Shown: positions 1 to 14,958 of the stretch, piece after piece | How positions within the stretch are numbered: the first letter of the stretch is position 1 | Layout of the letters: every line of letters begins with the position of its first letter | Virus record (IMG/VR): IMGVR_UViG_3300032323_000924 | Span: 1-21,673 of that record | Direction: 5' to 3' (one strand) | From: a virus | DNA length: 21,673 nt | Notes under the pieces: generated by a model | The model's database searches: none | Told to the model about the DNA's origin: nothing | Seen by the model: only the letters and a program-made list of their open reading frames with translations | Program-made: the position numbers and the translations under genes

Positions 1-49
1 CACTTCACACCTGCAAACCTGCGCACCCTGCGAACGGAGAACCCTGTGA
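1..49 (+). CDS. Possible 3' end of the upstream gene (partial)
   Basis: The frame starting at base 2 stays open to a TGA at 47-49. That stop overlaps the GTG start of the next gene as GTGA, the coupling used repeatedly in this genome (for example at 17283 and 20651). Only 15 codons are visible and they match no family I recognise. A second frame ends with TAA at 51-53, so the choice of frame is uncertain. By gene order the off-window gene would be a head gene such as the major capsid protein, but that is inference. Confidence 0.3.
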   Translation, partial: TSHLQTCAPCERRTL

Positions 50-2007
50 ATAATCCAATGGCACTGTTATGGCATAGCAACGCACCTTGGTGCGGAACCG
101 GCTATGGAACGCAAACCGCGCAAGCCGTGGAACGAATCAAACGTGACGGTCACGCTGTCGCAATCAACTGCAACTATGGCTTGCAAGGTATGCGCAGCGA
201 CTGGAATGACATCCCAATCTTTCCAATGGGAATCGAGTCCTATTCCAATGACACCGTGCGCGCAAACTTCACCACATGGAAACGCGAAAACCCTGACCTA
301 CCTGCGCACGTTGTCTGCCTGTTCGACGCGTGGACAATGCCAGAGGCAATGTGGAAAGACGTACCAACATCGGTGTGGGCGATGGTTGATCATCAGCCAC
401 TACCCCCCAATGTGTTGCAAGTTTTACAACGCCAAAACATCACACCAATTGCGGTGACCATGTTTGGATTTGAGCAGATGCAGCGCGCTGGATTGACTGA
501 TGCCAAATACATCCCAATGGCGATTGACACCAAGATGTATCACCCTGGTGCAACTTATGACGGCAAGACTGGGCGCGAGTTGATGAGCTTTGAACATGAT
601 TACCCTGACAGCCTGTTTGTTGTGTCAATTATTAACGCCAACAAAGCAAGCAGCGCCGGTGGTATTCACCGCAAGTCATGGGCTGAAAACATCTTGGCCT
701 ATTCGATTTTTGCTCAAGACAAACCTGATGTGCGGTTGTATCTGCACACTGAACGCTTTGGCAATTACGGCGGCCTAGCCCTCGACTTTCTGCTGAAGGC
801 TTGCGGCCTGAAAGACCAGGACAACTTTAAGTTTGTGAGCCAACACGCCATGCACAACGGCATCCCCAATGAGGCGATGGCGGCATTATTCAACGGCACC
901 GATGTCCTACTGGCGAGCACGATGGGTGAAGGATTCGGTTTGACCCTTCTCGAGGCGCAGGCCTGTGGAACTGTTGCAATCGCCAATGACTTTAGTGCCT
1001 CACCTGAGCTGCTCGGCGATGGATGGCTGACAGAGAATCAACCGTTTTGGGATGGCACACAGTTGTCATGGTTTGCCACACCCAACATTCCCAGCATCGT
1101 TGACGCACTTGAGAAGGCTTACGCCCGTGGCAAGCATCGCAGCGACAAGGCGCGCAAACATGCACTTGAGTACGACGCCGACCGGGTGTGGAAAAAGTAT
1201 TGGCGGCCATATCTCAAGGAATTGGCCAAGACGCCAAAGGTTGTGGAAGCAAAGACCACGATCGTTGCGAAAGGCAATGCGCAACCGAAACTTACTATTT
1301 ACGTCCCGGCATATCGTCGCCCTGAGATTGCTGACCTGTTTGCAAGTCTGGCACCGCAGCTCACCAATCAAGTTGAGTTGATTGTGTCCGACAACTGCCC
1401 TGACCAAACTGCGCTGGCGCCTTTGCGCTTACTCAGCAGCGCCCCGTGTTCGGTGACTTATCTGCACCAACCGTCAAACACTGGCGGCGTTGCCAACCTC
1501 GAGCGCGGCTTGACCCTTGGCACAGGCGCATGGTTGTGGATGATCTCAGACGATGATCAAATCTTGCCCAATGCGATTGCCGACATTCTCAACGAGATCG
1601 AACAGGCAGACATCGACCGCTTGATTCTGTTGAGTCACAAGGCGCCGACGGGCGCAGCTGGCATGGTGGGAACACCAGCAGAGATTGAAGCTGCGCAACC
1701 TGGCATCATGATTGCGGCAACCCTGATCACTGCCAATGTGTTGCGCCGTAGCGCCTTGGATGTCGAACTGGCACGGGCTAAGGCTGCAACACTCTATGGC
1801 CCTGCCTTTGCCTACACAGGCTGCAAGCGAGTCAAGGTTCACGCAACGCCAGCGATTGTTGTTGGGTGTGCTCATGTCAATGAATTTGTTGAAATGAGTG
1901 ACTCAACCGTTGACGTCTCTGCGGTGTGGTCGGAATTGCTAACGATGCTTGGCATTGAACCAACCCAGTCTGCAACTTCGTGGAACTATGTTTCGGTGGA
2001 GATGTAG
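46..2007 (+). CDS. Two-domain glycosyltransferase (GT4-like N-terminus fused to GT2-like C-terminus)
   Basis: This 653-aa protein appears to contain two sugar transferases. Residues about 1-395 look like a GT-B enzyme of family GT4. An N-terminal GTGYGTQ loop and the EX7E donor-binding motif (E295 and E303, in EGFGLTLLE) followed by AxACG support this. From about residue 418 a GT-A domain of family GT2 begins with a TIYVPAYRR strand, then SDNCPD, and the metal-binding acidic cluster at D502-D504 in ISDDDQ. It would act in the host cytoplasm, using nucleotide-sugar donors. The start is GTG at 46, with an ACGGAGA ribosome site just upstream; an in-frame ATG lies at 58. The epimerase gene follows with a 2-base gap. 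Because the next genes are head-tail genes, I infer that it decorates virion proteins. Modification of host surface sugars or DNA remains possible. There is no transmembrane segment. Confidence 0.85.
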   Translation: MNNPMALLWHSNAPWCGTGYGTQTAQAVERIKRDGHAVAINCNYGLQGMRSDWNDIPIFPMGIESYSNDTVRANFTTWKRENPDLPAHVVCLFDAWTMPEAMWKDVPTSVWAMVDHQPLPPNVLQVLQRQNITPIAVTMFGFEQMQRAGLTDAKYIPMAIDTKMYHPGATYDGKTGRELMSFEHDYPDSLFVVSIINANKASSAGGIHRKSWAENILAYSIFAQDKPDVRLYLHTERFGNYGGLALDFLLKACGLKDQDNFKFVSQHAMHNGIPNEAMAALFNGTDVLLASTMGEGFGLTLLEAQACGTVAIANDFSASPELLGDGWLTENQPFWDGTQLSWFATPNIPSIVDALEKAYARGKHRSDKARKHALEYDADRVWKKYWRPYLKELAKTPKVVEAKTTIVAKGNAQPKLTIYVPAYRRPEIADLFASLAPQLTNQVELIVSDNCPDQTALAPLRLLSSAPCSVTYLHQPSNTGGVANLERGLTLGTGAWLWMISDDDQILPNAIADILNEIEQADIDRLILLSHKAPTGAAGMVGTPAEIEAAQPGIMIAATLITANVLRRSALDVELARAKAATLYGPAFAYTGCKRVKVHATPAIVVGCAHVNEFVEMSDSTVDVSAVWSELLTMLGIEPTQSATSWNYVSVEM

Positions 2008-2009
2008 TC

Positions 2010-2726
2010 ATGCGCGTGGGCGTGACTGGCGCAAGTGGTCATCTTGGTCAGGCGATGCTGGCGTACCTGGCGCAGGCCGGGATTGACTTCACCCCAATCG
2101 GCAGGGAGATCCCGCAAGACCTGCGCGCCGATGTGATCTTTCACTTGGCCGCACCTAATCTGAAAGAGCCGGAAGCCTGCACCAGCTTCACCTATTTCAA
2201 TGAGGACTTGGTGATGTGGGCTGAGCGCAACAGCGTCCAGGTCATCAACACTGCAAGCTGGTGGCAACATGCCGGCATTGAGGCTGAGTCGCTTTTTTAC
2301 ACTCGCACCAAGGCAGCCCAGCAGGGCATGTTTGCAGGTCACACCACTTTAACTTTGTTCAGTGTGTACGGCGACCCAGTGCGTGACGACCGTGGATTCA
2401 TCCCACAACTCATTCGTCACCTGACGGGATTTAAGGCACTCACAGCGGCTTCAGATCAGCCTCGCGACTTCGTCCATGCAGATGATGTTTGCACCGCTTA
2501 TTTGACCGCTATTTCGGCGCCTGTGGCCACTTACGACATCGGCACACATCTGGCGCTGAGTCCGATGCAGTTGCTGGGAATGTTCCGCGATGACGTCGTG
2601 CCGCTACACATTGATCAACCCCCGGCAACATGCCACTGGCCGAACCAAAGACTTCCACATTGGTTTGCTGAAACATCAGTCATCACCCACATTCACAATG
2701 CTTACGAGGAGACCCAGTGGCAATAA
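2010..2726 (+). CDS. NAD-dependent epimerase/dehydratase (extended SDR)
   Basis: The 238-aa product is a short-chain dehydrogenase of the nucleotide-sugar epimerase type. It begins with a beta strand and the Rossmann motif GASGHLG at residues 7-13. The probable catalytic triad is S83 (NTAS), Y97 and K101 (YxxxK in YTRTK). RDFVHADDV near residue 153 is the conserved C-terminal segment of epimerases and dTDP-4-dehydrorhamnose reductases. It is shorter than typical family members (about 300 aa). I place the start at ATG 2010, preceded by a GGTGGAGA ribosome site, because the longer frame from 1980 adds ten residues before the nucleotide-binding strand. It sits between the glycosyltransferase and the head-tail connector, overlapping the latter by 10 bases. 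It probably supplies or tailors the sugar donor for the neighbour. The exact sugar cannot be read from the sequence. Confidence 0.85.
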   Translation: MRVGVTGASGHLGQAMLAYLAQAGIDFTPIGREIPQDLRADVIFHLAAPNLKEPEACTSFTYFNEDLVMWAERNSVQVINTASWWQHAGIEAESLFYTRTKAAQQGMFAGHTTLTLFSVYGDPVRDDRGFIPQLIRHLTGFKALTAASDQPRDFVHADDVCTAYLTAISAPVATYDIGTHLALSPMQLLGMFRDDVVPLHIDQPPATCHWPNQRLPHWFAETSVITHIHNAYEETQWQ

Positions 2727-3313
2727 CAAATGGCTATTGCACTCTCACCCAGATCAAAGCTGCCGTGCGCATCACCGATTCAGTTGATGACACATTGCTC
2801 GAAATGGCAGTGGAGTCAGCAAGTCGAATGATTGACGCCGAATGTGACCGAAACTTTTTTAGTGCAGGAACAGCCACCCGCGACTTTCAACCCAATGATG
2901 ATTATGTCGTTGACGTTGATGACCTGATCAGCATTGTCAGTGTCAAAATTGATGACGCTGGCGAACGAACTTTCTTGATCACCTTGGCCGCTAGTGATTA
3001 CCAGACCGAACCTTTGAACCAGCGCGTTAGCGGCAACGCTTTCCCCATCTCACGGCTACGTATGGTCGGTGACTATCTGCTCCCGATTTACAAAAGGCAG
3101 GCAACGGTGCGCATCGAGGGCGTTTACGGATTTACACCAACGCCGATTCAAGTCACCCAGGCAACCGTCATTCAGGCCAGCCGGATATTCAAGCGGCTAG
3201 ATAGTCCACTCGGAGTAGCTGGCTTTGGAGACATGGGCGCCATCAGGGTGGGCAAAGTTGATCCCGATGTGGCAATGTTGATTCGCCCGTTCAAAAAGAT
3301 TGCGGCTAACTGA
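2717..3313 (+). CDS. Head-tail connector protein (HK97 gp6 / phiE125 gp8-like)
   Basis: The 198-aa protein starts with a helical segment of the connector-adaptor type. It has 'ITDSVDDTLLEMAVES' at about residues 19-34, followed by an acidic aromatic stretch (IDAECDRNFF) characteristic of the DNA-packaging/connector superfamily that docks under the portal. A beta-rich middle (DYVVDVDDLISI, then a YQTEP segment) and a C-terminal helical part follow. The family normally runs 100-200 aa. The GTG start at 2717 has a CGAGGAGA ribosome site 5-12 bases upstream and lies inside the end of the epimerase gene. The next gene starts at its stop codon (TGATG). It forms the ring between portal and tail. The family call rests on pattern and position; no structure comparison was made. 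Confidence 0.75.
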   Translation: MAITNGYCTLTQIKAAVRITDSVDDTLLEMAVESASRMIDAECDRNFFSAGTATRDFQPNDDYVVDVDDLISIVSVKIDDAGERTFLITLAASDYQTEPLNQRVSGNAFPISRLRMVGDYLLPIYKRQATVRIEGVYGFTPTPIQVTQATVIQASRIFKRLDSPLGVAGFGDMGAIRVGKVDPDVAMLIRPFKKIAAN

Positions 3314-3720
3314 TGGCTGACATTTCAACTCTACGCACCGCCATCGCCACGAACCTTGCAACAATCTCAGGGCTGCGCACATCGGCAACTGTGCCCGATC
3401 AGATCAACCCACCAATTGCCGTGGTCATGCCGGCATCCATCACTTACGATCTAGCCTTTCGGCGCAGCGGCGGCGATGAATATGAATTCAGCGTGATGGT
3501 GATTGTTGGCCGTGTTGATGAAAGAATGGCCCAAAATAAACTTGATGCATACTGCTCAGGAACTGGCGCGCAAAGTATCAAAGCCGCCATCGAATCAAAT
3601 AGGACTCTCGGCGGCGAAGCATTTGACTGCCGAGTTACGAGCCTGCGCTCATATAGCCAAGTCAGCGTTGCTGACGTCACTTACCTGTCAGCAGAATTTG
3701 CTGTTCAGGTTATCGCATAA
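3313..3720 (+). CDS. Putative tail terminator / head-tail joining protein
   Basis: This 135-aa protein has no catalytic motif. The N-terminus (ISTLRTAIATNLATISGL) is a helix like those opening tail-completion proteins of the lambda gpU / DUF3168 type. Alternating beta strands follow (YEFSVMVIVGRVDER, DVTYLSAEFAVQVIA), ending in a strand, as expected for this alpha/beta fold. Its place directly before the tail tube gene is where the tail terminator sits in most siphoviruses. The start is ATG 3313 in TGATG coupling with the connector. It probably caps the tail tube and joins it to the head. A head-closure protein is an alternative, since no other candidate for that role is visible in the window. 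Confidence 0.6.
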   Translation: MADISTLRTAIATNLATISGLRTSATVPDQINPPIAVVMPASITYDLAFRRSGGDEYEFSVMVIVGRVDERMAQNKLDAYCSGTGAQSIKAAIESNRTLGGEAFDCRVTSLRSYSQVSVADVTYLSAEFAVQVIA

Positions 3721-3732
3721 GGAGAGCCAACT

Positions 3733-4152
3733 ATGGCAAAGCAAGTTCTTACAAGTCCCACAGTGGTTTTCGCTGGCGGGACGATCAGCGCAAACGTTGC
3801 ACAAGTAACAATCGCATTTGAAGCCGATGATGTTGAGGTGACAAATTTCAGTTCAGGTGGCTTTAGGGAGCGGATTGGCGGTTTGAAATCCGGCACGTTC
3901 TCAATGGAGCTTCACCAAGATTACGCACTCGGCACCATTGACTCGACATTCTTTAGCAACCTTGGTGGCACCGTGGCTGTGGCAGTTCGTCCACAAAACG
4001 GCACCGCTGCAATCGGTTCAGCAAACCCCGAATATCGCTTCAACGTCTTGGTGACCGGCTATGACGCCGTGGATTCAGCCGTTGGGGATCTCAGCACGTT
4101 CTCTGTTTCATACCCAATCACCGGATCGGTTGCTCGCGCAACTGCCGCCTAA
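3733..4152 (+). CDS. Major tail (tube) protein
   Basis: The 139-aa protein is almost entirely beta-structured, with the pattern of a phage tail tube subunit. An N-terminal strand is followed by 'NVAQVTIAFEADDVEVTNF', then a GGFRERIGGLKSG segment typical of tube proteins, where two sheets stack. SMELHQDYALGTID and a C-terminal FSVSYPITGSV strand follow. It has the strongest ribosome site of the block, AAGGAGAG just before ATG 3733, which fits a protein needed in hundreds of copies. It lies before the frameshifted chaperone gene, as in lambda and HK97 relatives. It should polymerise around the tape measure protein into the tail tube. If the neighbouring glycosyltransferase acts on virion proteins, this surface protein is one plausible target. 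Confidence 0.8.
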   Translation: MAKQVLTSPTVVFAGGTISANVAQVTIAFEADDVEVTNFSSGGFRERIGGLKSGTFSMELHQDYALGTIDSTFFSNLGGTVAVAVRPQNGTAAIGSANPEYRFNVLVTGYDAVDSAVGDLSTFSVSYPITGSVARATAA

Positions 4153-14714: not shown

Positions 14715-14958
14715 ATACATCGAAAGCGACAAGGGTGACGTGCATTGGCGGTTGCGGGCTGCATGTCGTAACTCTGACCCAGAGCTGTTCATGCCGCATA
14801 GCAGATTCGCGCAGGAATATCGCGTGGCCGTGGAGATTTGTCAGGGCTGTGAAGTACGTTCACAATGTCTCGAAGTAGGCAAGCAAGGCCGTGAAACCAC
14901 TGGGGTTTGGGGCGGCGTTTTATTTCAATCGAATGGGGAACAATATGAAGCAAGTTGA
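14701..14958 (+). CDS. whiB: WhiB-family [4Fe-4S] transcription factor
   Basis: The 85-aa protein has the four Cys ligands of WhiB: C22 (RAACRNSDPELF), C47 and C50 (EICQGCEVRSQC) and C56. The diagnostic GVWGG turn at residues 68-72 follows. The spacing C-x24-C-x2-C-x5-C is the family's. In Actinobacteria such proteins bind an iron-sulphur cluster and the principal sigma factor and so redirect transcription. Phage versions can switch early to late genes or modify host expression. The start is ATG 14701 within the resolvase gene; the much longer frame upstream is out of register with any family. The C-terminal basic DNA-binding segment usual after GVWGG is reduced here (LFQSNGEQYEAS), so it may act through sigma alone. 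Confidence 0.93.
   Translation: MFQLRYIESDKGDVHWRLRAACRNSDPELFMPHSRFAQEYRVAVEICQGCEVRSQCLEVGKQGRETTGVWGGVLFQSNGEQYEAS

Follow-up and report, generated by a model that had tools for sequence, protein, structure and literature searches.

Sugar-transfer genes placed next to the head-tail connector gene of a tailed phage raise the question of what their products modify. The glycosyltransferases (GTs) of aquatic phages are usually ascribed to DNA protection or to changes of the host surface (PMC10202952, PMC7029224). In the group of phages described here, the genomes themselves indicate the capsid, along with two candidate residues and the initiating enzyme, and the attachment sites are thus open to direct test. 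The stretch of DNA analysed (hereafter the window) is a linear IMG/VR record of 21,673 bases; by gene annotation it comes from a tailed phage and comprises its late half.

Organization of the window

The window begins inside a hairpin located just 3' of the major capsid protein (MCP) gene, and an alignment with L002–L006 and L010 placed the 3' arm of this hairpin at positions 1–7 (plus strand, like all features given up to position 4152). The MCP gene itself lies outside the window and is known from relatives. A Shine-Dalgarno-like GGAG (36–39), which is kept in relatives, precedes the GTG start of an ORF for a fused GT4-GT2 glycosyltransferase of 653 aa (46–2007). The gene for a short-chain dehydrogenase/reductase (SDR) resembling nucleotide-sugar epimerases (2010–2726) starts with an ATG 2 nt past the GT stop codon and overlaps by 10 nt the co-directional head-tail connector/adaptor gene (GTG start; 2717–3313; phrog_442, PF05135), which forms the boundary of the gene island. 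Both the adjacency and the overlap had been pointed out in a preliminary description of this DNA. Further downstream are the genes for the tail terminator (3313–3720; phrog_17840), the major tail (tube) protein (3733–4152; phrog_4574), which is a possible second acceptor, a probable tape measure protein and a holin, followed by replication genes. A WhiB-family gene (14746–14919), a marker of actinobacterial phages, and connector matches restricted to Pontimonas, Rhodococcus and Gordonia phages plus one unassigned EBPR phage indicate an actinobacterial host, and the island-bearing aquatic phages as a whole probably have such hosts.

The fused glycosyltransferase and the short SDR

Pfam searches with ORF 46–2007 identified a GT1/GT4-type domain (PF00534, 1.3e-9) and a GT2 domain (PF00535, 1.1e-13, residues 417–522), and the PHROG assignment was a glycosyltransferase family (phrog_2170, 6e-28). 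The GT4 domain, of the GT-B type (residues 1–400; 46–1245), represents the island's conserved first enzyme. Among 81 homologues, residues D94, D115, H116, N199, K200, R209, K210 and E295 were invariant, and position 303 was either Glu or Asp; the EX7E motif and the phosphate-binding basic residues (K200/R209/K210) are hence present. The GT2 domain, of the GT-A type (residues 414–653; 1285–2004), is acidic at residues 502–504 in the window, and D504 was found in 54/54 aligned GT2 domains. A GT4 profile of 58 homologues had chlorovirus B736L as its closest solved protein (3.2e-10), and the GT2 part of the profile search matched 5tz8/5tze, which we take to be the teichoic-acid glycosyltransferase TarS. 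An AlphaFold2 model of the fusion reached a pLDDT of 90.2 and its Foldseek matches in the PDB were GT-B enzymes, with B736L in the top rank (TM 0.72 by target). The domain composition, E295/E303 of EX7E and the acidic cluster had all been proposed in the preliminary description, which also suggested structure prediction, and each is borne out by these analyses. Since the same fused ORF was recovered from 11 further loci, and from L029 by tblastn, the fusion is not an accident of assembly. Catalysis is a predicted function of the protein, which may carry out two successive transfers.

The SDR matched PF01370 (1.3e-12) and, at the profile level, MoeE5 (1.2e-6). In 10 homologues the TGxxGHLG motif (TGASGHLG in the window), Y97 and K101 were invariant and residue 83 was Ser or Thr, in agreement with the S83, Y97 and K101 put forward for the epimerase. 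The protein is 238 aa long versus about 310 for extended SDR epimerases. Its fold matches, obtained with a low-confidence model (pLDDT 65), scattered over GalE, GDP-fucose synthase and MoeE5, and an attempt to name the substrate was given up because the model was too poor and the protein short.

A glycosyltransferase island between the MCP and connector genes

Loci were retrieved by the connector and by the MCP, and the interval between both genes was read, resulting in 86 unique intervals. An island of 1.3–4.6 kb was present in 82 of these and absent from four. The survey of related phages that the preliminary description had recommended thus located a GT-bearing island at the same place in nearly the whole set, and its remark on the rarity of such genes in structural operons does not hold for this group. 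GT4 is the first gene of all 82 islands (in L029 and L112 it was seen by tblastn and not as a called ORF). Relatives of the window have the order MCP-GT-SDR-connector. What comes after GT4 is variable: nothing, a fused or separate GT2, more GTs, SAM methyltransferases, a cytidylyltransferase, an RmlD-like reductase or epimerases. Phages with MCPs 90–98% identical and nearly the same GT4 nonetheless carry differing cassettes behind it, as exemplified by L116 and L152 (MCP 98%, GT4 92% and connector 98% identical). In L022, whose MCP shares 88–90% identity with the MCPs of L099, L101 and L006 (relatives of the window), the fusion and SDR of the window type are replaced by GT4 and three other genes. 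One gene of this replacement cassette (L022:6061–7014) is a phage homologue of GDP-mannose 3,5-epimerase (1.7e-31). A glycerol-3-phosphate cytidylyltransferase-like gene was observed in the islands of L046 (3594–4016) and 13 further loci; its presence points to a donor activated with CDP and, possibly, to decoration of the phosphoglycerol type.

GTDB genomes were scanned for GT4, and only three loci matched it over most of its length, one in a Microbacteriaceae MAG (L180) and two in Chloroflexi MAGs (L181 and L182), while the remaining matches were short and generic. All three are situated in phage structural modules. The GT4 family is not a passing acquisition from host wall-polysaccharide genes. 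Pairwise identities of GT4 and MCP were closely correlated (Spearman 0.89–0.91; protease versus MCP, 0.80–0.83), and this co-inheritance is in part a matter of physical linkage. An apparent uncoupling of the connector from the MCP (0.45–0.50) turned out to be an artefact of mixing the two retrieval sets, and within each set the value was 0.76–0.81. Our literature search, which was incomplete, found no published description of this MCP-connector island. Glycosylation of phage virions is already known; the enzyme set, its location, the modular swapping and the candidate sites are new.

Two MCP residues are lost together with GT4

Phages devoid of GT4 would be expected to lose the acceptor if the MCP is what GT4 modifies. 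Two MCP columns, 251 and 336 (numbered after relative L008), were already conspicuous in the first survey, and 160 more locus hits were then added. Ser or Thr was present at position 251 in 115/123 carriers versus 0/38 island-less phages and at position 336 in 113/123 versus 2/38. At least one of both residues was Ser/Thr in all 123 GT4 carriers and in two of the 38 island-less phages, the other 36 having neither. Counted by cluster, the values were 66/71 versus 0/14 for position 251 and 66/71 versus 1/14 for position 336; many of the contigs surveyed are fragments. These two columns outdid all other conserved MCP columns, and among 110 conserved columns they were the only ones to change in all three lineages tested. 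A prediction fixed beforehand was then tested on later-fetched loci less than 95% identical to the earlier ones, and at least one Ser/Thr was found in 25/25 carriers versus 0/4 island-less loci, L442 being one of the latter.

A FastTree phylogeny built with both columns masked resolved four separate island-less lineages, namely a main clade of 14, the L174 group, L442 and L398, and loss of both residues was seen in all four. The association comes from these four lineages, one of which holds most of the island-less tips, and the Fisher and tree tests model shared ancestry incompletely. L442 is nested among carriers and is 79% identical to carrier L164, and it has lost both residues. Four loci with reduced islands (L420, L421, L422 and L425) possess GT2 without GT4 and also lack both residues, which indicates that the residues follow GT4; these loci belong to the L174 group and hence are no independent event, and they may reflect either GT4 loss or a different acceptor. 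Searches of island-less contigs of 25–34 kb detected no GT4 elsewhere, while control carriers gave matches. Both residues belong to Gly-rich loops that follow the spine-helix region, with position 251 aligning near residue 242 of HK97 gp5. Judging from the HK97 A domain, these loops are presumably exposed on the outer surface.

The tail tube protein

The tail tube yielded a weaker signal. A C-terminal Thr, which in the window is Thr137 (..RATAA-COOH; codon at 4141–4143) and a candidate acceptor, was the best of 33 columns, occurring in 69/73 carrier versus 9/17 island-less clusters. Among the 65 loci surveyed first, it had looked like a perfect marker (0/4 island-less), a status that was dropped with more data. 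The carrier phiPsal1 lacks this Thr, and carriers L142, L286 and L415 have none within the last five tail-tube residues. Its position resembles the C-terminal glycan sites of mycobacteriophages, and the tail tube is perhaps a further target of GT4. At the comparative level, the virion glycosylation suggested in the preliminary description for capsid or tail tube protein is thus well supported, and the case for the tail tube is the weaker one.

Proposed function and alternative explanations

Taken together, the comparative data make it likely that the GT and the SDR constitute a capsid-glycosylation cassette in which GT4 primes the MCP, GT2 extends the glycan and the SDR supplies or adjusts the donor. 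With a host nucleotide sugar as donor, the GT4 domain would attach a first sugar to Ser/Thr hydroxyls of the MCP made by the same phage (O-glycosylation), most likely at the equivalents of L008 Ser251 and Thr336 and perhaps also at the tail-tube C-terminal Thr. Cytosolic GT4 enzymes that modify Ser/Thr residues of proteins exist, as exemplified by streptococcal GtfA. A second sugar would be added onto the first by the GT2 domain, and the SDR may make or adjust an activated donor sugar. The glycan would be set by the swapped genes behind GT4 and could then vary among closely related phages that share a constant first step. The acceptor, the type of sugar and the order of transfer in this scheme are predictions. 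There is a little more for than against a broader version, namely that across the lineage one conserved GT4 reads a pair of similar Gly-[Ser/Thr]-Gly-type loops in the HK97-fold capsid protein and that exchangeable cassettes place differing glycans on capsids that are almost identical, so that "glycan serotypes" would change with the cassette.

The enzymes could instead act late in infection on wall polysaccharide or teichoic acid of the host surface, so as to block superinfection or the re-adsorption of progeny to debris. Such a role has been proposed in the literature for aquatic phages, and it fits the resemblance of the GT2 domain to 5tz8/5tze and the cytidylyltransferase-like gene of some islands. 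However, it does not account for the vanishing of two MCP residues when GT4 is absent, nor for GT4 following the MCP gene in every carrier surveyed, and the annotated island families include no flippase- or polymerase-like gene; we consider it unlikely. Slightly less probable still is that the target is mainly the tail tube or another tail protein and that the MCP residues changed for other reasons, e.g. capsid subtype. While C-terminal tail-tube glycans are known from mycobacteriophages and the Thr counts lean in this direction, the association with the MCP residues is much stronger and was seen in four lineages, and the Thr is both kept in about half of the island-less tail-tube clusters and missing from the three carriers named above.

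Glycosylation of phage DNA as a defence against restriction, which was suggested for GT-carrying Nanopelagicales phages (PMC10202952), appears very improbable here. No gene of the thymidylate-synthase/hydroxymethylase families was detected in 11 records, including the complete phiPsal1, by searches whose controls worked; a Tet/JBP search was likewise empty, though its control was silent too. The late structural position of the genes and the co-loss of the MCP residues also speak against a DNA target. Capsid glycosylation, if true, would be a core trait of an abundant phage group in an antibody-free habitat. Since these phages live where antibodies are absent, a role beyond the evasion of animal immunity is suggested, such as protection against grazers, particles, other phages or decay.

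Comparison with known systems

In cluster O mycobacteriophages, a methyltransferase and GTs are encoded amid the structural genes (PMC4351075), and mycobacteriophage glycans have been located at the C-termini of capsid and tail-tube proteins (PMC12619734). That some actinobacteriophages glycosylate their own virions, as the preliminary description stated, is known for Corndog, Che8 and Myrna. According to papers that cite Freeman et al. (2023), these phages (Corndog gp35–38, Che8 gp108–110, Myrna) likewise use several phage GTs with capsid and tail tube as targets, and Corndog includes a methyltransferase and has its genes among structural genes. The mycobacteriophage GT genes lie between portal and protease or at the genome end, whereas the present island lies between MCP and connector, and it differs from the Corndog/Che8 type in its constant GT4 with exchangeable genes and in the proposed sites being internal MCP loops. 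No homology to Che8 gp108–110, which are GTs implicated by experiment, was detected in single-sequence comparisons of low power (hhalign probability about 1% or less).

The chlorovirus PBCV-1 Vp54 system (A064R, A546L/B736L) also relies on virus-encoded soluble cytoplasmic GTs, a multi-domain GT and variable glycans, but it belongs to a eukaryotic virus with N-glycans and an unrelated capsid fold. The function of B736L, the closest solved relative of GT4, is itself putative (PMC5408694). The gene order is also the same in Pontimonas phage phiPsal1 (MCP-GT4-(SAM methyltransferase)-GT2-neck-tail completion-tail tube), but here the GT4 and GT2 genes are separate and a methyltransferase takes the place of the SDR. 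Synechococcus phage S-CBS4, with two GTs and a SAM methyltransferase between portal and protease, and Microcystis phage Mae-JY09 also carry GT genes in the structural region, but their enzymes are more distant and their capsids are of other types.

A hairpin behind the MCP gene

A perfect hairpin of at least 11 bp was observed right after the MCP gene in 86/86 loci (e.g. L046, L069, L053 and L116), island-less loci included. The stems varied, with 60 distinct 5' arms among the 86 loci. An AGG-containing loop (TGTAGGTT, GCGCAGGA or GGCAGGA) was present in 61/86 of these hairpins versus 23/270 other hairpins. An Rfam search of six hairpin loci named no family at the hairpin, which is possibly a terminator or an mRNA end whose loop is conserved. 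The co-expression with virion genes that had been postulated for the cassette is plausible given its co-directional, overlapping genes, but in every relative this strong hairpin lies between the MCP and GT genes, and the GT gene is therefore probably expressed at a lower level than the MCP gene. In phiPsal1, the MCP gene is closely preceded by an 82-nt element (L019:5569–5650) that matched the Rfam tmRNA family (1.2e-18); ARAGORN made no call at this match, and the element is perhaps a tmRNA-like remnant or an attachment site.
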